Shown in pieces: positions 30,762 to 64,000 of a stretch of DNA of 64,000 nt. The notes beneath the pieces are model-generated. The model searched no databases. It was given only the letters and a program-made list of their open reading frames with translations, and was not told the origin of the DNA. Within the stretch, counting starts at the first letter, position 1. Every line of letters begins with the position of its first letter. Source of the DNA: Mesaphorura yosii (lineage: Eukaryota > Arthropoda > Collembola > Poduromorpha > Tullbergiidae); assembly GCA_009869945.1 (NCBI GenBank), contig WIXG01000208.1, positions 62,001-126,000 of the forward strand. Reading direction: 5' to 3'. The position numbers were made by a program, and so were the translations under genes.

Positions 30762-33700
30762 TTAACTACGACTTCGGCTCCGGTTGTAGCCTCCAATCCA
30801 TCTTTCACGCGACCGCCTCTGCCTGGCACCTCTTCCACCCCAACTCTGTCGCCCTCCATGACGGTCGCGATCCCGGTGCGAAGAGCGCGATCGCGACTTG
30901 TTTCGTCTACTTCGCGGAGATGATTTACTTCGACTTCGACGACGTCCTTCTCTCGAGCGGCTTTTTGATCCGTCCCTGGATTTCTTGTCCTTTGATGAAC
31001 TTCGGGCTCTTTCCTTGGACTTCGGCTTGGAAAGACTCCTACTCCTGCTCTTAGATTTTTTGCTCGACTTGCAGGACTCCGAACTACTGCTACTGCTTGA
31101 GCTTTTTCTGGCTGTGCGTTTTCGGCTATCTTTGGAGTCGTCTCGCGTGCGTCTTGTCTTAGAACGCGACTTTCTCTTTTCCCCACTCAAGCTTCTCCTT
31201 TTCCGTTCGGCACTTTGTCTCTCATTGTCACGGTTTCTTCCTCTATCCGGACTCCTGTCCAATTTCGGAGGTGTCCTCCTGCGTCTTTCTGGGCTTCTTC
31301 TTGTCTGTTTTCCTCTGCTCCGGTCAGCAGACTTTCTTCTAACGTCGACCGGGCTTCGGCTCCTTTTACGACTTGGATGGTCCCTTGGGTCTCGCCGTGC
31401 AGTAACTGCCTTCTCAGAGTCTTTAGCAGGGCTTTTCTTCGAAGGTGAAACTCTTCTATGGTGTGCACTTCCTTCCCCTTTCTTGGAGTGCTCATTTGTA
31501 TCTTCATCTCCTGAACTCTCTTCCCAATCTTTGAAGCGTTTCTTCAATAGCTCGCTTCTCAACCTCCGTTCTTCGTCTTCATTAACAGTTGATCCAAGAA
31601 TGGCCGGAACCATGGGTTTCTCTTGGCGATCAAAATTTCGAGTTTGGTTGTTGTCATCCCTCGATCCTCTCCTTTCTGCTCCATGTCCGTGGTTAGATTT
31701 CTCGAATTTATCCCTTTTGAACAAATGTTGGTAATAAACGACACCGTCTCCGTTGCCAGTCATTCCGGCAGAAGCCATTAGAAAAGACTCGATGCTTGGC
31801 TTTTCCTTCTGCTGAGGTTCAGCCTTTGAAACGGGACCCGTTACTTCACTGTCGGTTTCACAAACTTTCTCCTCTTTCACTCTGCTCTCTTCCTGTAACT
31901 TATTTTCCTCGTGGCGTTTTTGTCTCTCCTCTTGTCGGCGGCGAAGCTCTTCCTGTCTTTCCAACTTCCTCTTCTCTTTTTCCTAATTCGAGAAATCAAG
32001 AAATCAACAGAAATGAGTGTACATATTCCCACCTCATATTGCAATATTGTACTATCATACCTCGAACTCTTTTAAGCTAATAGTTTTTCGAGCTTCTGCC
32101 TTCCAGTGCGGAGGAGTCACGCTGCGCGATCGACTTCGAGATCGTGATGTTGCTCGAAAGCACTGTACAAGAATCAAGTTTTAGATTAGTTCTCTGTGTC
32201 ATGTAGAAGTCAGTAGCCAGCAAGCCAGCCATTATTGCATGACGTACCACACGCCCGCGACCCTTGATACGTTTATTATCCCCTCCGCCTCCACCAAATC
32301 GGGAGTCCCGAAATCGATTGAAGAAACCTCTTGGCGGACTTCTTCCATCTCTTCGTCCCCTGTCACGTCGGTCACGATCTCTGCTGTGACTTCTTCTCCT
32401 GTCTTTCTTGTCCTTATCCTTATCGTCTTCCTCTTCCTTTTTTGCACGCATCAAGAATCTATTTGGTGGATCTGGCGGTATTTCTTTCTCGTCGATATGT
32501 GTAACAACGGCCAAAGGATGCATGATCTCCCTAATTAAACCAGTAAAATTATTAATGCTTCGGAACTCAAGCTCATTAGATAATCTTCTATTAAAGTTCA
32601 TCAATAATACTTGTCCTCATCCGCGTTTTCGTCGTCCGATATCTCTCCCTCTTCGACTTTTTGCTTCTTTCCGTCTTCATCATTCGAGCCTTGATCATTG
32701 ACCTCTCCCGAAGATGCTTCTTCCTTGCGTTTCTTGTCTTCTTTTGCCTTTTTAACTTTCTTTTCTGCAAAATTAGAAATTGCGCACATGTACTATGGAC
32801 CTCAAGTAAGGGAGTTCAAATGGAATCAATATGAAGGTAAGAAGATAAGGCAAACCTTTTTTCTTTTTAAGCAACACAAGTTCTCCACAATTTGCGATCT
32901 TCACATCCTGAAGGGGTCTGTTCTTCCTGTCAGTCGGTAATCCCTCTATTTGCTTCACAACTCCATGGCCACTTACAACACGTCCAAAAACGACGTGAAT
33001 TCTATTCAAGCGGAAACAGCGAATGAAGTTTATATAGACGAAGAAAATGAAGCAAGAGTTCTTGGATTATTTAACTTACCCATTTAAATGCGGAGCAGGT
33101 TCAGTAAGTCTAATTCAGAAGAAAGAAGAGAAAAATAGGGTCTGTTATACTTCAATGATCAACTACAACATAAACTTTCGGGCTTCCAAATCAAGTCAAT
33201 TCTAAACAAAGTAGAAACAGAGAAAGAGGACTTCTGATTATCCAATGTCTTGTTGTGTTAAGTCAATTAAGTCTCTTTCCTTCTTAACTAGTTTTAGCCA
33301 GTCAATGGAAGTACTCCATCAAATCAGACAGAATACAAATTGGATTAACTGAGCATATCATTTTTAACTTGATTCGGAAGCAGATCAGACATAAATTAAT
33401 AGAAGATACTTGAGTAGTGAGACACCGAATTGGTTTTTGTCTCGCCACAATGACAACTTAGAATCCACCTGAAAATCTTAATATTTAGATCTTTCACTAA
33501 AACTTAACCATTATGAAATGTAACCTGGTGTGGCAGTTGTATGAAAGGATAATGTAGATTCTTACATAAAAAACTGCGACCCATTCGTCCCGGGCCCACG
33601 GTTCGCCATCGACAGCAAAAATGGTTGATCATGCAGTAGCTCAAAGTTTTCATCTGTAATTGAAATGGCAAGACATGAATTCAAAATAGAGAACTGAGAT

Positions 33701-35079: not shown

Positions 35080-38000
35080 CTATACATGTGTAGGTTGCAG
35101 GTAGCAGTCCAGAGCCGGTGGGCTGACTTCGTCGTCTGTCCCTGAAGGTGATGAAAATTCACCACGGGAGAAGTCGGTTGTTGGTTCCAGCACCGGACAT
35201 TCCTTTTCTGTCGGAGAACTTGACAGAGAACAATTGCCATTGCCATCTGATTTGAGGTTGTCAACCAGTTCTTCGCGTCGTTGATCACAACTGTTAATCA
35301 AAGCCTGCAACTTGGTGATGTCGTTAATTCCCGGAGCCCGGACGCTCTCCGGAGGAGACGGATGTGTAGCATTCAATATTGAATGAGCTTGAGGTGAGCC
35401 CTGGCCAACTTCCAGACTCTTGAGCTCTATGATGGAGACATTCAGGCGTGGAACATTCACAAAGCACTCAAGATTTGAAATATCCATTCCGTGTGAAGTA
35501 CAGGACTTTGACTGTGGCTGTCCTGCTGCTTCTGACCAAGGCAAAAGGAGAAATCTTTCCTCATCGTTCTTCGATATCGCATCGTTTCTTGAAAGTTCTG
35601 CTGTTTCCACTTCACTTACGGCTATTCGTACTTCTTCCTCGTGGAAAACAATATTGGTATTGACATCAGGTGCTGGAAACATGGGTTGTAGCGCGTGTGA
35701 TGATGAGCCAAAATGAGTTTCCGGCTTGGACAATTCAATTGAGAGGGGCAAGGGTACACATTTTATTTCTTCCAGAGGAGTGCGGCGCGAAACTGTTTTC
35801 TTCTTCCACGATGTGTTCATTTCAAAGTCAGAAGTCAGATCAATTTCGACTGCTAAATGAGGTTTGTTCGTGTTGCTCAGCTCTAAGGGGTTGACATCAA
35901 TATTGGAATTCATCTCATTATCTTCATTGTTGACAGGAACAACGCTGTAAACCGAGGTTGTCTCTTGGGAATGGTGCAAGCAATTGCTTTCAGATGCAAC
36001 AAAGGGTTGATCCTCTGACGGAGATTCTGAATGCAGCACCAAGTGATCTTCTACAGCTTGTGTCACCTCATCTTCATCTGCAGTTATAGTAATAGAACTA
36101 TTGACTGTCGAGTTGTCACCCTCCGGGTCTTCTTCAGGCTTGACAGAATCTTCTTGACCAACAAACCAAAAAGATTGACTATCACAAGGTTCTTTCGGTT
36201 CCGCTACTACGTTTGCCTCTTTCTCTTTCCTTAATTGGAAGTCTTCTACGTCTGCTAGTCTACTTCCTCTAAGCTTGATCAGTGCGACTACTGCGGCATT
36301 CTCAATTTCCGTTGATTCTGCCTTGTCATCTTTCGCGTTTCGGCTTCCATCCGGATCCGACAAATCTCCAATCAGTTTACTAAATCCTAAACCTTGCTCC
36401 CCGGGTTTGAATTCCATTTTTCTGAGGCTTGACCTCAGATAGTTCTCAATATCTTCAACTTCAGCCTCTTCAGCTTCCACTTCGGGCTCCAGAAAAGTAG
36501 GCAGACCTAGTTCTATCGAGTTCGCAGTCGAGCCGTCCCCCAAATTGTCGTCCTGGTCATCGCCGCGGACATTATATTCTCCGGACGGTTTTACAGAGTA
36601 CGTCTCTTTAACTTTGTTAAAGCCACTTTCTTCAATGAGTTTGGTGATCTGATCGCATTCATCCTCTTTAGATTCTTCGTCTTCGTGTAGCACAGTTGGG
36701 TCATATTTCCTCCTCGATTCATCCATGGCATTTGCCGCAAATAGCGGAAGACTTTTAGCTTGATGCACTTTCTTTTTCGTTGTGGCTTTTTGTTCTTTCA
36801 ACTGACGAGTCCGTTTTTGACTTGATTTTGACTCACGGAAGCTATCAGATTGGGTCGAGATGCTCTTATTAGTAGCATGATCAGTGGTGAAATCCTTCGT
36901 TCCTTTTGGATCTGGTACTCTGATTCGCTGTAAACTGGACATCAAGTGAGTGAAAAGAGGAACGTTGCCGATGACGTTTGTCTTTCCCGATTTCGTAATG
37001 GCATTTTTCCTTCCAACCTCAGAATAATCTAAAGCGGTAGGACTATAAGTATGCATGCTGTTAAGACTGCATTGCAATTGGTCTGCCTTTCTTTGAGAAT
37101 TAATGGACGGTCGCCGTTCGGGAGCAGCGGGCTGCCTTGATCGCTGTTGAGATTTCCTGGAACTAGTTGATTCGGATTCCGATTGAGGATCGACTTTTGA
37201 CGGGACAGGATTGTCGTCTAGGGAAAGCTTCCGTATTAGTTCTGACGTACTGAACACGATTCTCTGCCCTTCTTGCACGTCCCTCAGAGCATAAATATCG
37301 ATTCTTAGTGACTGGAGCGTGCAAAGGGGAAAAGCTTCTGTGAAATTCTCTTCAGTGGCAGGTGGCTTTGTTCGTTCGTCTTCTCTTTTACGTAAGACAC
37401 TTATGCGTTTTTTGACCACCTTCCTAACATTTCTCACTCTTACATACTTGCGCTTTTCTACGCTGGGTTTTGATTTCTTCAGGGCCGGCTCATCTTTAGT
37501 CTTAACACCACTGTCTCTGGTTCGTAAAAATCTTTTCCACTCCTTGAAACGTGATTGTGGCTCTTTTTTTACTGGTTTTCCTTTTGCTTTATCATCGGAA
37601 TCATCCGCAGTCGGTTCAAAGCCAGCTTCAAAGATCATTTCATCGCCGTAATCTTCCTTCAAGTAACTAAATTTTGAGTAATCGGGCCTGGCAAATTCCA
37701 AATTGTTGAGATCAAGGATTTCAGATCCTCGTGTCTTCAAGTGCTTCGAGCAAAGCGGTTCATAAAATGACCAACTGGGTCGAACTGTGTTGAAATTTGA
37801 CAGTCTTGAATTCGCTGAGACACAAATGAGTGTTTGAAGTGTTGTTTCTGGAATCCCCAATTCCGAAGATTTCTTGCTACATGAGACACATTCCCAAACA
37901 GTCTTAGTCCAGGCATTCTCATCATTTTCTGAAGTCTGCATATTTCCGGTAGGAGAGCGTCCAGACCGTTCCTGTGCGAGCTCCTTCAACTTCTTAAATA

Positions 38001-39962
38001 ATTCCTCAGTTGGATTTAAGGAGAAAGCAGTCAAAACAACGTCGAAAGCCATAGCTGGGTCATTCTTGAAGGACAGTGCCAATTCTTTATACTCCATGGC
38101 TAAAGCCCTTTCTTTTGCTGCTATTTCACCCTTAGATGGGTCTCCTAGACCGCTCATACGCAACTGCTCAAGCTCATTGCTCTGGTTGGAAAGAGCGTCA
38201 ACGCACAACTTCACACATTTTGAACGAATTCCAAGCCATTCCAAACCAAACTAGATTCGAAAAGAATACTATATTAGTTGATATTTCCCTGCACCGAAGC
38301 CCAAAGCATAATCACGTAGTCGCATACTAGATTGGAATATGCATGAAAAAAATTTGCAACTTACTTCCATGTTCAGTGCAGCTGCAAAACAAGACAGATA
38401 ACCCTGGTCTCGGACATTCTTGCAAAGATCATCGATAACTTCAACAGGAAGGATGCTTAAGAACTTCTTTTCTTCTTCTTTTAAGTTTTCCTGAGCTTCT
38501 GGCGTTAAATTGTACATGTGGGCCTTGGAGGCAAAATTAGCTCCGGCAAGATATTTTTGCTGATTGAGTTTGTAGGTCAATTTCAGCCATTTGGCAGCAG
38601 TGGAGAAAATACTTCTAAATACGACTTCAATAATAGCAGCGGTGGGAACAGGAATAGGAGCCGTCACCGACTCCCACAATAATTTCTCTACCCATCCCTG
38701 AGCTATATCGTCTTTGTATTTCCATCCTTTTTTCCACTTAGTCGCAATTCGATTGCTATCGACGTCAGCGACTAGTTTGTCGAAAATGTAATCTCGCGTG
38801 GCAAGTGAAAACAAGTTGCACACCTGTAAAGCCAGCAGAGATTGTCTCAGTCAGTTAGTTTACTTAGCTGAGATCTTTCACTAGTGCAATGTTAGTGTTT
38901 CAACTATTGACTTACCGATGTTAAGTCTTGATTCAATTTAACACTTAATAAAACAAAGATAGTTCCAAACTCTAAGAAGTCGTCCGATGACATTGCGGCG
39001 CCTACGTCCTCAATTTTAGGGTTGTCACCGTAAATGCTACGGAATTTTAGAATGGATCCTTGCACTAGGGCCTTCGCCTTTTGCAGATCATTTGCAACGC
39101 ACAACCACTCAACACGAATTTTGATAAACTCGCAGTCCTCAACGGTCCACATTTCATTCACTAAAGGAACAAACATTTTACAAATTGTGTATTTCAGTCA
39201 AAGAAAGTGGAAACAATAAAACTAAATGGTTTCTTTCATCTTGATTTCTTTAATGAAGATCGCTCACTTACCTGCTTCCATTTCAACGGCCAATTCAGTT
39301 GAGTTGTATATTTTCTCAAGATATGGAGCTGACCATACGTTATACTGAATGATGTGTGCCATACCTTGACACATATTCCGGAATCGTTTGTTTCGATCAT
39401 CACAATCATTGTGGTTGCCCTCTCTTAAAATGAAGTTAGTCAGCTCAGATTTAACGCTTTCTAGAACAACCATCCACCCACCGCCAAATACACATTTTGC
39501 AGTCACTCTAAAATGGGGAAGGCGTGATAGTTACAATAGCTAGTTAGCGCAATTCATTCTCAGTTTAAAAAAATCACCCTTACTCTATGAGTAGCAATGG
39601 GCTGACGTTGGCACCACTTGCTGTCATGTCTGACTCAGTCCAGTTTCGCCAAATAGGGAGCAAACTCATACAAGAATCAACGCCAAAGTTTCCGCTTTGC
39701 TTTATCTGTAATATACTTCTGATTACGAGTTCCTTTTTCTGTTCCAACTCGAACTTCTCCCGCGATTCCTGCAAGAATTCAAGTGAAAAACATTTTTTAT
39801 AAATGTTCCAAGACTCGGCAATGGAAGTATAGCGATGTTAGGTCGCTTTACCATGTCCATCATCGACTTCTCGTCTTTGATGTCGTTCAACAATAAGGGG
39901 CGCAATTGCTTGTGTGCGTTGGCTGCCAACTGTACCAAATCGAGCTCTTCGGTATCAGGCAT
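35080..39962 (-). CDS. Unrecognised large protein: helical N-terminus, CxxC/CxxH motif, acidic disordered tail
   Basis: Six exons join in frame: 39962-39852, 39768-39584, 39507-39272, 39160-38916, 38823-38365 and 38250-35080, giving 1,468 residues from the first ATG I accept. I do not recognise the family. Residues 1 to about 510 look globular and mostly helical, with Trp/Leu/Ala-rich segments resembling TPR-like or armadillo-like repeats. Around 530-585 a WECVSC pair and a later LCSKH pair could form one zinc site (CxxC, about 41 residues, CxxH). A strongly basic patch near 670-700 (KKSKPSVEKRKYVRVRNVRK) could be a nuclear localisation signal or nucleic-acid contact. The remaining 750 residues are Ser/Glu/Asp-rich and probably disordered. 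The frame stays open about 30 codons upstream of the chosen start (includes SRRSPWVVLRALE), so a further 5' exon is possible. It is head-to-head with WDR37. Confidence 0.85.
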
Positions 39963-54517: not shown

Positions 54518-57500
54518 ATGTCTTTGGGTATGGAAGTTGTAAATATTGCTGAGATGAAGACTCGAGACGAACTTCTAGAGTTGCTAGAAATTAACACAAA
54601 TGACGTGGTAAGTTTTGTAAGTGCAAAGGTGATGCGTGAAGCAGCGTGAGAGTGTTATTGCTTGCTAAATTCTTATCGCATTTGATAGGAGCTGCATTCG
54701 AATTCAGCTTCGATACTGTTCAAATGGATCGAAAAATTATCGGTGTACATCACGGAACCGCAATGGACCGAAATCATTGCCAATACATTTCCGTACCTTT
54801 TATCAACAATTTTGCGACGTGTCTGGTCCGCGAATAGCAATTGTAAAACCAAGAACGACGTTACTGAAAATGTGCTTCTACTCTCCAAAATAATAGGAAG
54901 ACATCCCTCACTAATTAGGTAATCCCACACAAGCTCACTTTATACACTGAATTTAACGATAAGCACTTGCTATGCTAAATGCCATAGATTTGCGACACAA
55001 GTTTTGCAAGAGATTGGATCCTTGATGAAAAATATAACTGGCCAGTCCTCAAGAAAAGTGTCGAAACGCTCGAGGAATGATACAGACAGGAAGGCGAATC
55101 TGGAACAACTACTATTTTCAACGTTACTCCTAGTGAAGTCCATCCATAATTACAAATACGTCATTTCGGATGTATCCCAGTGTTTGGACTATATGACAAG
55201 CGACGACGCGGTTATTAGATGGTGAGTGTAGATTTCTTTCTCGTCGATAATAACTTAACGCACAGCATTATAATAAAATTAACTGGCCAATGTGTACAGG
55301 TTGGCGGCAAATTATATTGGATGCGCCCTTAAACTTCCTGAATCCAAGCTAACTAAACTCAAAGAAGGAGGCAAAATTTCTATTTCACAAGATTCTCGAA
55401 TGTGTTTGGAGATGCAGAGTCTGACTGAACAATTTAGAGAACGAAAACTATTAAATGAAACACAAAATCTCCACTTGCCAATAAATAGTAAGTACCACTA
55501 CCGAGCCTACCAATACTACATTTTAAAGATTATGAGCATAATTTGTTGAAATATTTATTAGATATCTTGGAGCTGTCATCTATTGAAATGGAACAACTGC
55601 TTTCAGTTGGAGGCGTAATGATTCAGTTTCAGTTGCCTTCAAAATCAAGTCTTGGAATGAAATTAACTAACCAGATGCCGCTTTGCCAATTACCGTCAAC
55701 TGTGAACATTCTTCGAGAAATTGCCTTGTCCACACTGTGTCAATCTGCACCTGTTTGCCTTCAGGGGCCTGTTGGCTCAGGAAAAACACTCCTACTTCAG
55801 TATATAATGTCATTATTTCGACGCTCAAAATTTCCGCACAGTATCTCGGTTCAGATGTCAGATCAAATTGATTCAAAGCTCTTGCTGGGATCGTATCATT
55901 CGACTGATTTGCCTGGTCAATTTGTTTGGAAACCGGGATGCTTAACCAAAGCTGTGTTAAATGGATATTGGATTATTTTCGAAGATTTGGATGCCGCCAC
56001 AGCTGACGTTTTGACTCTCTTGAATTGTTTAATGGATAACGGGAAACTTACTGTACCTGGCTATGGAGAAATTCATAGTATTCATCCAGACTTCAGAATG
56101 TTCTCAACTTGCAGGACTCAGGTAGGACTGGTTTGAATTGCCTATTGCTGCAAGGCTGCAACTGGAGGAAATATCCTGGCAAGCAAGCTTTTGAAGCAAG
56201 TTTTCGTTCCATTTTAGGTTGGGAAGAGAAGTGACAAACTGAAGTCAGCATGGACAAAGCTGAACATTAATCATATTACAACAAACGAACTGAAGGGCCT
56301 TGTTTACGGGCTATTTCCTCATTTCAAACAAATAGCTGACAGACTGATTAGCATGTACACCACGTTGATTGAATTTACTTCAGAGTCATTTAATTCTGGA
56401 AGACTGATCACATTAAGGTTATTCTCACCATTAGCAAGTATTATGAAAACGTTTTTAATGGAATTTGTTTTCATATTTCTGTACACAGAGACTTTATAAA
56501 ACTTTGCCGACGAATTCCACTCCAACTGGATTTCAATAAACCGGAATCTGCCATCTCCATTTTCCAGGAAGCGTTTGATATATTCGCTTCTTCCTGGAAA
56601 TGTCAGACAAAGAAGCAGCAGATTGCAGAGATTATTGGCACACATTTGAACCTGCTGAAAGCTAAGGCTGAGTATTTCTGCACAGCCTACAAACCGAATT
56701 TGAGTATCTGCTGTAATACAAACTCAGTGACATGTGGGAGACATTCTGTTAAAATGATCCAATCGACATCCAACCTGATGGGGTGAGTAAAATTACAAAT
56801 CGATGACAGTATAAGGAGTGGAGTGTCACGAAAATACTTTTTTATTAGGGACAAACCTGCAGTATTTTCCCTCACAAAGCGGGCATCTTGTCTTTTGGAA
56901 ATGATTTGTGGTTGTGTCAAGCACAATGAGTCAGTATTATTGACTGGAGAGACCGGCGTGGGGAAAACATCTTGCATACAGTACCTTGCGAACATTCTAC
57001 ACCAGAAATTAATTGTTGTAAACCTAAACCGGCAAAGCGACTCTGCCGATTTACTTGGAGGGTAATACTTACACGTTTTTACATCATTTTAATGATCGAC
57101 CAGATGCTAACTAAACTAACTTCTTAGATACAAACCGGTCGAATTAAAATATGTATTTGGACCGATTCGGGAAGAATTTGAAAGCTTATTTGTACAAACT
57201 TTCAACAAGGAAGCCAACTCAAAGTTCTTGAGTCACATAATGACTTGTTATGCAAATCGAAGATGGAAGGATTTGGTAAAACTTATGTTCCATGTAGAAA
57301 AGGCTGCTTTACAACGTGTGCTGAAAAACAACCAGGAGCAAAGCAATAATCTTTTCGAACAGTAAGAAAATTAACGCATATCTTCATACTATGCAATTGG
57401 ATTTTCTCGAAATGACGCAATTACTGGCATTAATAGATGGACCACATTAAGCAATCAGCTATCCAGAGTCAATTTGCAAATTCAGCAAGGTGAAAGCCCG

Positions 57501-60500
57501 TTTGCCTTTGCATTCATTGAAGGATCCATTATTAAGGCAGTCAAAAACGGTAGGTTCTGTTCTGATTGATGATCTTGACTGGAAGTCTACTTCTGCATTG
57601 TTTGCATCTAATAATATTCTATTGCAAATGATACCAGGTTACTGGATTCTGTTGGACGAAATAAACCTTGCCAGCCCAGAAATGCTGCAGTGCTTATATG
57701 GCATTTTGGACGAGAACTCCAATATAAATTTAATGGAGAAGGCAGACGAAACTCCGATAGAGAAACATGTCAACTTCCGCCTCTTTGCAGCCATGAATCC
57801 GGCTACCGATGTAGGAAAGAAGGAACTTCCTCTTGGCCTTCGAAATAGGTTTGAATGCAAAAATTGATACTCCATATAGTAAGAACTCTACTCCTTAATT
57901 TTTGTTTTACAGATTTACGGAGTTCTATCTGCCTGAGCTAACCGATCCGTCAGAATTGCAAATGCTGGTCACTGAATACTTACGAGGTTTGTCTCTTTCA
58001 TCACAACAGGCAGAAAGCATTGTCCAACTATATTTGAGTGTCAGAAAGTTATCTGAGACTACTCTGGTCGATGGATCAAGCAAAAGACCGCATTACAGTT
58101 TGAGAACCCTGTGCAGAGCTTTAAAAATTTCGTCTTTGACATTGTATGGAAGCGTCAGCCGCTCTCTGTACGAGTCATTTTGTTTGAGCTTTTTGACCCA
58201 ACTTGACCGAGGTTCGCACAACCTCGTGGAATCAATTATTGCGAGGTAACGGCTGTTAACTTCATTGCAATTACAATTTGTTACGAATGCTATATTTCTT
58301 GGAAATCGCAGGCACATATTTGGTAAATCTGATATAAAATCAATTCTTAATCAATCATTGCCTACGCCGAAGCTGGGAAAATGGGTTGAAGTCGAAGGCT
58401 ATTGGTTATGCCAAGGAGATCATGATGTTAAACAAACAGAAATGGTATAAGTCTCACTGTTTCGAGTGGCTGCAACTTGAACTTAATCTGTTTCCAAATT
58501 AATTGCAGTACATTCTGACGTCAAGCGTCCGAAGAAATCTGAAGGACTTGGCCCGAATTGTTTCTGCAGGAAAACTGCCTGTGTTGATTCAGGGAGAGAC
58601 ATCCGTGGGGAAGACAAGTCTCATTCAATATCTCGCAGATTTAACCGGGAACCGCTGCTTCCGCATCAATAACCACCAACACACTGATCTCCAGGAATAT
58701 GTAGGATCATACCAGTCAGATGAAAATGGAAAACTAGTCTTCACAGAGGGTATCTTGCCAAACAAACGCTGTTATACCACTCAGTGACCAAAGCTGATGC
58801 TAATACAAATTTGTTGGACAGGTGTACTAGTTCAGGCGATGAGAAGGGGAGACTGGATTATACTGGATGAGTTAAATCTTGCACCTTCTGATGTTTTGGA
58901 GGCGCTGAACAGAGTGCTGGATGACAATCGGCAGCTATTCATCACTGAGACTGGACAACTAGTAAATGCGCATCCAAGATTCATGCTGTTTGCTACTCAG
59001 AATCCTCCTGGCTTTTATGGGGGTCGAAAATTGCTATCCAGAGCTTTTCGCAATCGTTTTGTGGAACTGCACTTTGATGAGATTCCAACAGCAGAACTTG
59101 AAACTATACTTCATCTCCGTTGTGCCATTCCACAGTCGTACTGCGCAAAAATAATCGCTGCACTTAAGGACCTGCAAGTAAGTAAAGAAATCAAAGGCTG
59201 AGTTGTCCAAGAATTTCATGTTCTTCGTACGAACAAACAGGTACGACGGAAGTCCAGTGCCACCTTTGAAGGGAAGCACGGGTTTGCCACGTTGCGTGAC
59301 TTATTTCGATGGGCTGAACGATACCGGTTGAGTGGCGAACAGACTGGACGCTTCTATGATTGGGATCAGCATTTGGCTGACGAGGGTTACTTGGTACTGG
59401 CTGGCAAAGTGAGGAAATATGGCGAAGCCGATGTAATTCGTGAGGTCCTCCAGAAGCACTTGAAACGGACCGTTGATCCACATAACTTGTTCACGTGTAA
59501 GTCCCTTTCATCGATCTTTTGGCATTACGTTCGGATTTATATTCTCAGTTGCATGCATTTTTCTTTTAGTGCATGACAAGACGTCTACGGTTACTCGGCC
59601 TATATTAGAGGAAGTGCTACGAATGGATGTTCCTGAGTTTGGTCATATTGTTTGGACGTTCCAATTGCGCCGTCTCGCAGTTCTGATCGGGAAGGCGTTG
59701 CAATTTAAGGAACCGATTTTACTGGTTGGAGAAACAGGATGCGGGAAAACTACCATGGTTCAGCTCCTGAGCCAACTTAGAAATCAGAAATTGTTTTCGG
59801 TTAGCTGTAATATGAACAGCGAGGGCAGTGACTTTATTGGTGGGCTGCGGCCTGTGCGCCAACATCTTGAAAATGTAAAATTAACTAAAGTATGTCAGAG
59901 TCGGATTGGATGGTTTCAACTTTTGTTTTTCCACTTCCAGGATGACCGTCTTTTTGAGTGGCTGGATGGGCCATTAATTGAGGCAATGAAGAATGGAGGA
60001 ATATTCTTAGCTGATGAAATATCTCTTGCTGACGATTCCGTTCTTGAACGAGTAAATTCGGTTTTAGAGCCCGAGCGGACCATTTTAATTGCTGAGAAGG
60101 GCGATGAAACTCCTTCCCTAATTAAAGCGGTCGACAGCTTTCACTTCATTGGCACGATGAATCCCGGTGGTGATTATGGAAAGAAAGAGGTGACTTTTTA
60201 CTTCGCCGCAGAATTTTGGCAAGATTTAACTTTTTAACATTTTGTCTCTTGTGTTTAGCTGTCGCCGGCATTGCGCAACCGATTGACAGAAATTTGGTGT
60301 GAAGTCACCACTGAGCTGGAGGATTTGGAATCTATAATTGAGCACAACCTCGATGGAGCACTTCGTGGACAAAACATTGGCAAAACTTTGATCTCGTTTG
60401 TCTCCTGGCTTCAATGCACCGAGCAAAGTATTCGCTGGACGGTTACTATTCGTGACTACCTGTCCTGGGTCGCCTTCACCAACCACACCCATTCGAACTT

Positions 60501-62130
60501 GGGTAACATTTCATTGAGGTCTACCATTCACCACGGGGCTTGCCTTGTACTGCTTGACGGTATTGGAAGTTTACTTAACATGGGTGAAAAGTAAGTGATT
60601 TATTGCTGCCGCACTGTCGCTTTCTCGATCCCAATTGTAAACCAATGTTATATTCTAGCTCAACACTCGTTCATGACAAGAAGATTGAATACCTCACGAA
60701 ATTATCTGAGATGACAGCAAATTATGCTGGTGATGACGATGTGCTTCAACCATCATTTATAATTCAAAATTCAGCTGAGTACATTAAGATCGGCAAGTTT
60801 CCAATAGTCAAGAACTTGGATCTCAGCAAGCATGCATTTGAAAAACAATTCACATTGAGTGCTCCCACAACTTCTCAAAATGGACTGCGACTTTTCCGAG
60901 CCATGCAACTATGTAAACCGATTCTACTGGAAGGGTCACCTGGTGTTGGAAAGACTGCTCTTGTGTCAGTGCTCGCTAAAGTTTGTGGATTTCCATTAGT
61001 TAGGATCAATCTTTCAGAGCAGACCGACATCTCCGATTTGTTTGGAGCCGACTTGCCAGTTGAAGGAAAAGACGGTGGTCATTTTGAATGGAGAGATGGA
61101 CCCCTTTTACAAGCATTGAAGACATCTTCATGGATACTACTGGACGAATTGAATTTGGCCTCTCAGTCTGTGCTGGAAGGATTAAACGCTTGCCTCGACC
61201 ATCGTGGCGAAATCTACGTCCCCGAACTCAACAGAACATTCAAAATATCCAAGACACATAACATCACAAAAATATTTGCGTGCCAGAATCCAGTACGTCA
61301 AGGAGGTGCCAGGAAAGGTTTGCCAAAATCCTTCTTGAACCGATTTACTCAAGTCTACATGGACGCGCTTACGTTGGATGATCTCAGATTCATTATGAGA
61401 ACAATTTATCCAACACTTGCGAAGACTTCAATTGATATTATGACCCATTTCGCGGATTCTGTGACCAAGGCCGTCAACGAACTGAACTTGTTTGCAAGAG
61501 TTGGTGCTCCTTGGGACTTTAACCTGCGAGATTTAATTCGATGGAGTGAATTAATGCTGAACGAGGAAGACGATGACTGTGACCCTCGTTGTGGCCCGTG
61601 GGCGTTTGTTGATTTAATTTACGGGCAACGAATGAGGACTTCAAAAGACGCGAGAAGAATGCTGCAGCTGTATTTGGAAACGACAAAATTGTACAACCGG
61701 GATGAAGAAAAGTCCCCTGTGCTCAAGTGTGGTGCTAGTGGATTGTTGTTGCTGAATGATCAATTCATTTGTGGAAACGGTTGTCTAAAACGAGGCAGTA
61801 CAATGCCGGGCTCTGATCAAGGCGACATCAGCAAGCAATTGATCCTGCTGCAAAGACAAATTCCGTCAATTGAAGCGCTTACCGTATGTCTTCAAAGAAA
61901 CTGGATGCCAATTTTGGTAAGATATTTCATGGTTCGATATTAAATATGGAACTCGGAAAGTCAGTTCGGAAATATCATAACTTAATGTGTCCTCAATGCA
62001 GGTTGGACCCAGCGGTTCCGGAAAGACTTCGGTCATTAAATTACTTGCTGAACTCTGTGGTCACAAACTTGAAATTATGACAGTCAGTCCTGAAATGGAC
62101 ACAATGGAACTACTCGGAGGTTTTGAACAG
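54518..62130 (+). CDS. MDN1: Midasin (MDN1/Rea1), N-terminal part through the start of AAA6
   Basis: Twenty-one exons join without a frame conflict to 2,058 residues (first exon 54518-54607, last 62002-62130), with introns of about 50-96 nt. Six Walker A motifs follow in order: GPVGSGKT near residue 317, GETGVGKT 630, GETSVGKT 1041, GETGCGKT 1348, GSPGVGKT 1687 and GPSGSGKT 2016. Walker B motifs include FEDLD (AAA1), LLDEINLA, ILDELNLA, LADEISLA and LLDELNLA. The ED order in AAA1 is normal for the family. Midasin is the giant dynein-like AAA+ ATPase that strips Ytm1 and Rsa4 from pre-60S ribosomes in nucleolus and nucleoplasm. Whole proteins have about 4,900-5,600 residues; here the linker, acidic region and MIDAS domain are absent. 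The last exon ends at a donor (CAG|GTTCGT) and no following exon is found in the remaining 1.9 kb. Confidence 0.95.
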
Positions 62131-62287
62131 GTTCGTACGCCGTTTCTTTGTGATAGAATTACAAGCATTAGCATCGGTAAAACAGTAATTCGAGTGATGT
62201 CTAGCAGTCTAACGTGCGTGTTCGAGGCTTAAATTCGTACCACAGTACAAGGCCTAAAAATTCAAGAAGCAGAAGCCAGATTTCGGT
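62131..62287. other. Spacer between the last midasin exon and the opposite-strand gene
   Basis: If the midasin donor at 62131 is skipped, the frame reads 33 more codons to a stop at 62232. Those residues do not resemble the AAA6 continuation, so this is taken as intron. The stretch lies between the convergent ends of two genes and holds nothing else recognisable. Confidence 0.5.
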
Positions 62288-62293
62288 TTTATT
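62288..62293 (-). terminator. Poly(A) signal AATAAA, right-edge minus-strand gene
   Basis: AATAAA on the minus strand about 40 nt past the TGA at 62331, ideally placed to end the minus-strand transcript. This supports the short terminal exon at 62331-62378. Confidence 0.55.
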
Positions 62294-62330
62294 ATTATCC
62301 AAGTAATCAAAAGGGTCTTTAAGATATTGT

Positions 62331-62378
62331 TCACCAGCGATTCTCCATGAGTGAGGTCGATCGGTCCTCCATCGAAGC
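62331..62378 (-). CDS. Putative terminal exon of the right-edge minus-strand gene
   Basis: A 48-nt segment after an acceptor (GTTGTATTTAG) reads ASMEDRSTSLMENRW and then TGA. It is phase 0, matching the phase-0 donor of the exon at 63595, and a poly(A) signal follows closely. Another frame of the same bases is also open, so the assignment rests on phase, acceptor and the 3' signal. Additional small exons may lie between. Confidence 0.5.
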   Translation of the reverse strand, partial: ASMEDRSTSLMENRW

Positions 62379-63594
62379 CTAAATACAACAACATAAAATT
62401 AGTTTTTTTTTACTACCATCTCATTGCGTACTACCGGACTACATATTTGGGCAAGCATAGCATATTTGTAGAGAGCAATCTCTATCTCTCAAATTTCATT
62501 TCACTTTCCAGCGTGCGTGTTCGTCGGAATTTTTCTCGTGGTCTTCTCTTCCTTTATTGTTGGAAGTGAAATTACATTACATAATTCTCAACGACAGAAT
62601 CTTGGTCTTAGAAAATAGAACTTTCTTTCTATGGTTGGTTTGAATTGTTTCTTGAGCGTGGAGCGCAAAACTATTCAATGGAAAACACAATAGACCGGTT
62701 TTATTATCAGAAATTATGAGACTGCATTATGATGGTACTTGTACTCTTGTGGCGCCTGAGCCGGAGGCAGAACTACGCGAGAGTGAAAGAGACTGCGGGA
62801 AGAAAGTACGAAATAATAACTACTCGTGTAAATAATCCCTTTATGGTTTAGTATCTCTGGTTTCGCTCATAATAGGATTTGTATTTATTAGTGCAGGCGG
62901 CAGGCTTATGGTCATTCAGGAAAGTTGTTGCATAAGACTGCTTTTCTTCCATAATGAAATGAAGTTCGCGTTGTAAACAATCATAAACCAAGCGGGTTGG
63001 CTAATATGGTTAAGCTTGTAACCAAGTTCTTCAACTTTCTACCGCACTCATTCTTGTGTTTCGTCGAGAGTCTAAAATTCAAGCGCATGGAACCACTTTC
63101 CATATTCTTTACTTCTCTGATTTACACGTTGATTTTTGAAGTCGCTGGCCTGATTTTGAGCTTGCGTGACATTTGAGATGAGCTGAAAAATATGAGGGAC
63201 TTTTCTACGTGTTCGGTGTCTTGTGGGATGTAAATATTTTAGTTGCATGATTCACTGTTTTCGCCCTTGAGCTGCGAACCTGCACCTCCGTAAATCATGC
63301 ACGGGCTCACCACGTCTTCACAGCGTCAGATTTACGTTCCCATGCTCTTCAAGCACCACTTCTGGAATGAATATTGTATTACTTGGCTGGACTAGAAACA
63401 AGTTTCTCCTTCCAAGTAATAAAATCCGAACAACGCTACGATATATGCAGCGAAGATGAAGCATGTAGTATGAGATGACTCGCCTAATGATCTAACCGAC
63501 TTGCTACTAGTCCGTCGGATCCGCATTTCTAGCATTATTTGGCTCGCTTTCTATAAGCCATGGTTGTGGTTGAGAAACAGATTAATAAACAAAC
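62379..63594 (-). other. Intron-like stretch of the right-edge minus-strand gene
   Basis: About 1.2 kb with no supportable coding exon on either strand. It is probably one intron of the minus-strand gene, and on the plus strand possibly also part of a long midasin intron. Confidence 0.4.
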
Positions 63595-64000
63595 CTGCTT
63601 CCTAAAAGCCATGTTCCGAGGTGGAAGGGGCGCCGGTGGCAGTCCAAGTTCAATGATTTCCTCTTCATCCGAGCAGTGCATCGGTGACATTGATCTTCCA
63701 ATCAGCAGCTCAGTTCCCCCGAGAGCAGCGAGGCTCGCGATGTGAAATCCACTTCCGGCTGCACCACCGCCAAGGCTTCGATTTGACTTAATTGACTTGA
63801 CAGAGGGTGTCCTCCTTAACTTATGGGCGATATTGTCCATTGATTTTGAACTGCCAAGCAACACATTCTGAGTGCTTGATGAACGCAGCTGATTGTGGCT
63901 GCTGGCCCTGCTCGATGCTAAATGTCGGTAGTCTGACTCGCGTCCTATCCCCGGATTATTGTGAATTGTCGTGATTGAGCTGTGCAGAGTTTCCCGACGG
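63595..64000 (-). CDS. Unrecognised Ser-rich protein, C-terminal exon, partial
   Basis: An open frame of 135 codons enters from the right edge and ends at a clean donor, AAGCAG|GTTTGT, in phase 0. The peptide is rich in Ser, Arg, Asn and Gly. It includes LRRTPSVKSIKSNRSLGGG, which looks like basophilic-kinase (RxxS/T) sites, then an acidic patch SDEEEIIELG and a proline-rich LPPAPLPPRN that could bind SH3 or WW domains. This suggests the disordered tail of a cytoplasmic signalling or scaffold protein. I do not recognise the gene, and a membrane-receptor tail is equally possible. Joined to the exon at 62331-62378 it would end in ENRW. Confidence 0.65.

Follow-up and report, generated by a model that had tools for sequence, protein, structure and literature searches.

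A probable 17-kb intron of the midasin gene in the collembolan Mesaphorura yosii and a predicted receptor gene on its opposite strand

The window analysed here is a stretch of 64,000 nucleotides from Mesaphorura yosii (GenBank assembly GCA_009869945.1), corresponding to positions 62001-126000 of contig WIXG01000208.1 (hereafter C208; 142,069 bases). It raises the question of whether midasin (MDN1/Rea1), an essential gene, is broken in this genome: the coding sequence can be followed from its start codon into the AAA6 module, and the end of a gene on the opposite strand comes next. An earlier note on the window offered three explanations, namely a long intron harbouring an antisense gene, a gene split by rearrangement, and a false join of two contigs. 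Very probably, the midasin gene is intact and what follows position 62130 is an intron of 17,009 nt, in which a predicted antisense gene of seven coding exons for a probable, divergent rhodopsin-family G protein-coupled receptor (GPCR) is nested. Positions given without a contig name are those of the window, and the features are collected in Table 1.

Table 1. Positions of the midasin and receptor features in the window and on contig C208.
Feature	Position	Strand	Remarks
Midasin (MDN1/Rea1) 5' part, ATG to AAA6 Walker A exon	54518..62130	+	Spliced model; AAA_5 and AAA_lid_7 matches
Last midasin exon of the window (AAA6 Walker A)	62002..62130	+	Ends in phase 0
Midasin intron of 17,009 nt, first 1,870 nt	62131..64000, on to C208:141139 (window-equivalent 79139)	+	Donor and acceptor located
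AATAAA polyadenylation-signal-like hexamer	62288..62293	-	Starts 38 nt past the receptor stop
Last coding exon of the predicted receptor	62331..62378	-	Stop TGA at 62333-62331
Sixth coding exon of the predicted receptor (TM7 and C-tail)	63595..64262, cut at the window end (63595..64000 inside)	-	
Predicted receptor CDS, 7 coding exons	C208:128901 down to 124331	-	Spliced frame

Midasin on either side of the probable long intron

The 5' part of midasin was modelled with 21 exons and 20 introns, giving 2,058 codons. In this spliced model all 20 introns ahead of the last exon in the window are of the GT-AG type and measure 51-96 nt, with a median of 70, as the earlier note had remarked in putting them under 100 nt. 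For two of these introns, shifting the edges by up to 4 bases in search of an open frame gave a single solution; an automatic model of the same part had 18 introns, one of them 124 nt long, with two introns read through and some edges placed differently. Across the genome there are 21 AAA_5 matches, six of which are on C208, and all three AAA_lid_7 matches are on this contig as well. The last exon encodes the Walker A motif of AAA6 (VGPSGSGKTS), and at its 3' end GGFEQ is followed directly by GTTCGT in phase 0.

The next midasin exon begins at C208:141140, 17,009 nt from the donor at C208:124131, is preceded by TTACAG and reads ADVYRKIDELTVGF; the donor and the acceptor side are both in phase 0 and on the same strand. 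With E up to 10, a probe for the Walker B part of AAA6 matched the genome at six places. The best match is C208:141832-142059 (+) (E=2.2e-24, 57% identity), and the other five all fall inside the midasin exons of the window. No further midasin exon was detected with this probe between 62131 and 64000 (E up to 10), in agreement with the observation that neither a Walker B exon nor a later one follows 62130 in the window. The conclusion that midasin stops inside AAA6 was mistaken, since the gene goes on at C208:141140, then through Walker B, to a MIDAS domain on contig C1.

The junction between 62130 and C208:141140 falls after residue 71 of the spliced AAA6 query. Residues 5-93 of this query align with residues 1851-1939 of 6or5_A, a stretch of 89 residues in both. 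For 6i27_A, residues 6-96 of the query pair with 1983-2069, and the net length difference is four; both comparisons are judged from the coordinates of the aligned stretches. We take these two chains to be fission and budding yeast midasin. With the alignment running on through the junction, an exon missing at this point is unlikely. Midasin chains are matched, in order, by the Walker A part and the Walker B part; the linker between them (query 97-208) was unaligned to the PDB midasin chains. The predicted protein is a midasin by its tandem AAA modules, with a complete AAA6. The two introns that follow on C208 were modelled at 173 and 81 nt, and the 17-kb intron stands out when compared within midasin, because all 20 of the earlier introns are shorter than 100 nt.

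The Walker B exon ends at C208:142052, 17 nt short of the contig end, and the 3' part of the gene is carried by contig C1 (970,415 bases). There, base 606 is preceded by an AG, and the exon at this position completes the codon that is split at the end of C208, opens with AMRNRGVEIF and carries AAA6 on (AMRNRGVEIFMPG). The assembly breaks within another midasin intron (C208:142053-142069 and C1:1-605), and midasin is therefore divided over two contigs. The last 40 bases of C208, searched as two exact 20-base words, are absent from C1:1-10000, so that this intron would measure at least 622 nt plus a gap. We take the break between the two contigs to be a limit of the assembly rather than a biological break. 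What breaks nearby is the assembly and not midasin: C208 stops 17 nt inside a later midasin intron, and the gene resumes on C1.

A search with probes for the missing exons, which the earlier note had proposed, located the C-terminal part of the gene in addition to the AAA6 part described above. The MIDAS probe has a single match in the genome, at C1:10045-10623 (+) (E=9.5e-65, 55% identity); the modelled frame meets this exon in phase and then reaches a stop codon following ALRQWFELVTSDER. An acidic stretch and the motif DDSASM were seen by eye in the spliced model. The succession of an acidic region and a C-terminal MIDAS (VWA) domain likewise marks the predicted product as a midasin. The 16 introns modelled on C1 range from 52 to 241 nt, with exon edges taken from a simple scoring model by which some exons or introns may be miscalled. 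After 62130 the model contains 3,014 residues, close to the roughly 3,000 that the earlier note had estimated were still needed, and the whole predicted protein comes to 2,058 + 3,014 = 5,072 aa. Its open frame is partly a matter of construction, because the models were built to avoid in-frame stops; in favour of the midasin model is that its frame is in phase with both the AAA6 and the MIDAS exons found by the probes.

The AAA modules, the acidic stretch and the C-terminal MIDAS domain are common to the model, the PDB chains of midasin (Rea1/Mdn1) and the human midasin probe, and the modelled MIDAS domain ends close to where that of the human probe ends. Compared with known midasin, nothing unusual was seen in the predicted protein, while one intron is exceptionally long. 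What seemed to be a defect of this essential gene is thereby cleared, midasin appearing to be whole in M. yosii. Automatic annotation could report such a gene in fragments if it limits intron length or proceeds contig by contig.

Contig C607, which has an AAA_5 match, was considered as a source of the missing midasin part and dropped; it is the one examined among the 15 AAA_5 matches outside C208. The minus-strand ORFs in C607:1-10000 read by eye like dynein heavy chain and are unrelated to the missing part of midasin.

A predicted receptor gene on the minus strand

The earlier note had a minus-strand gene ending at 62331 with a stop codon and a polyadenylation signal, and both were recovered at the end of a longer predicted gene, coding exons 1-5 of which lie outside the window (up to C208:128901). 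Its introns measure 395, 83, 346, 100, 580 and 1,216 nt, all six of them GT-AG and with matching phase, and the open frame, starting at a Met in the first coding exon, has 616 codons; a start further upstream is possible. The predicted coding sequence is nested, as it lies (C208:124331-128901) wholly within the midasin intron (C208:124131-141139).

There are grounds on which this frame might be held not to be a real gene. Its exon edges were chosen by hand from the sequence to fit the phases. The first 437 of the 616 residues match 7tm_1 (PF00001) at E=3.3e-5, with 23.9 bits against a curated cut-off of 30.5; this match spans profile positions 167-258 of 260, and no 7tm_1 match was obtained in six single ORFs that were scanned apart. 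A PDB search returned 52 sequences at E up to 1, of which two fall below 0.001; both are CCR6 (best match 9d3e_A, E=6.4e-4) and cover TM6-TM7 only. Hydropathy analysis (Kyte-Doolittle >1.2) yields nine segments, two of which, at residues 265-283 in loop 3 and 423-441 after TM7, are extra to the seven assigned to TM1-7. DRY/ERY, CWxP and NPxxY-type sequences are among the motifs that define the rhodopsin family, and DRY, ERY and [ND]PxxY/F were not found in the 616-codon frame. We nevertheless regard a spurious frame as quite improbable, because six phase-matched introns leave all 616 codons open, hydrophobic segments occupy the expected places of TM1-7 with CWVP (CWxP) in TM6, and the PDB matches are rhodopsin-family receptors. 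The product of this predicted receptor gene looks like a divergent orphan receptor. It has no DRY/ERY motif, and it has a long stretch between TM3 and TM4 (C208:127823-128324, minus strand, outside the window).

A genome search with 184 residues of the receptor, from loop 3 to TM7, gave seven matches, two of which are the receptor gene itself. No close second copy was seen, since the other five matches have E values of 0.016 to 0.36 only.

The rest of the intron and the alternatives

Between the first coding exon of the receptor and the next midasin exon there are about 12 kb, which may represent the upstream region of the receptor. Among the 40 best segments of a codon-usage scan, the highest in this interval scored 10.3, compared with a 95% level of 11.8 obtained by resampling (60 first-order Markov sequences, 11.8 kb each); two segments passed 11.8, one in a midasin exon and the other in a receptor exon. 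The scan has low sensitivity, its background having been trained on a portion of this very stretch and some receptor exons having scored low, and it gives a weak indication that clear coding sequence is absent from the 12 kb beyond the receptor. No Rfam family was found in C208:124001-142069 at gathering thresholds, and the long intron contained neither tRNAs (program run with the bacterial code) nor tandem repeats.

The alternative that survives best, although still improbable, is that the assembler wrongly inserted the 17-kb stretch into a midasin intron. The assembly is fragmented (93 Mb in 1,127 contigs), C208 itself ends inside midasin 930 bases past the long intron, and an intron of this length departs from all 20 that precede it. 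Such an error would need two independent false joins in one intron that left splice sites on both sides, whereas the order, strand and phase of midasin are kept across the stretch and C208:124001-142069 is free of N bases. Three DNA probes spanning C208:124131-141100 each match themselves alone in the genome, in a self-search that skips very common words and simple repeats, and hence no repeat able to mislead an assembler was seen.

The rearrangement that the earlier note had entertained is contradicted by the same order, strand and phase on C208. That midasin is truly split, into two transcripts joined by trans-splicing or two polypeptides that assemble, is the least likely of the explanations. 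Indirect points in its favour are the unusual length of the intron and the antisense gene inside it. Against it, the two parts follow each other in order and in matching phase on a single contig, and the break falls inside the ATPase fold of AAA6, past Walker A and before Walker B. Of the three explanations first offered, the long intron harbouring an antisense gene is the one supported, the next exon lying on the same strand and in phase, with the minus-strand gene in between.

From these coordinates we infer splicing across 17 kb and a correctly assembled contig. Under the nested-gene reading, the midasin pre-mRNA would be transcribed across the whole region, receptor included, and cis-splicing of the usual kind would excise the long intron, so that GGFEQ is joined to ADVYRKIDEL in phase 0. 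Midasin would then continue across the break between the end of C208 and the start of C1. The receptor would be transcribed separately from the opposite strand, with a putative promoter in the 12 kb upstream of it. A more elaborate proposal, that the 17-kb intron is kept because it carries the control region of an orphan receptor lacking the DRY motif and that convergent transcription through it couples ribosome assembly to receptor expression, strikes us as improbable.

Comparison with known nested genes

Nested genes are described as widespread in animals and frequently run opposite to the direction of their host; they account for about 6% of the genes of Drosophila melanogaster, 2.1% in Caenorhabditis elegans and 0.5% in human (PMC3786989). 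Interference between nested and host genes has also been studied (PMC8467205). The tim2 (timeless2)/2mit pair of D. melanogaster (PMC3786989) likewise has a protein-coding gene in one intron of its host and in the opposite orientation. In M. yosii the host is midasin, and the nested receptor has six introns, compared with one in 2mit. Conservation, expression and a functional tie were tested for tim2/2mit (PMC3786989), whereas the midasin/receptor nest is predicted from sequence. A literature search pairing midasin with a nested gene returned no paper. The arrangement is most likely an ordinary nested gene, a new instance of a known arrangement. It illustrates antisense nesting within a host gene whose introns up to that point are almost minimal.

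Elsewhere in the window, the minus strand carries ORFs of 406 and 179 aa (30762-31982 and 32077-32616) that are RS/SR- and charge-rich and resemble a splicing-related protein by eye. Two further minus-strand ORFs, of 1,056 and 193 aa, are located at 35080-38250 and 38269-38850.
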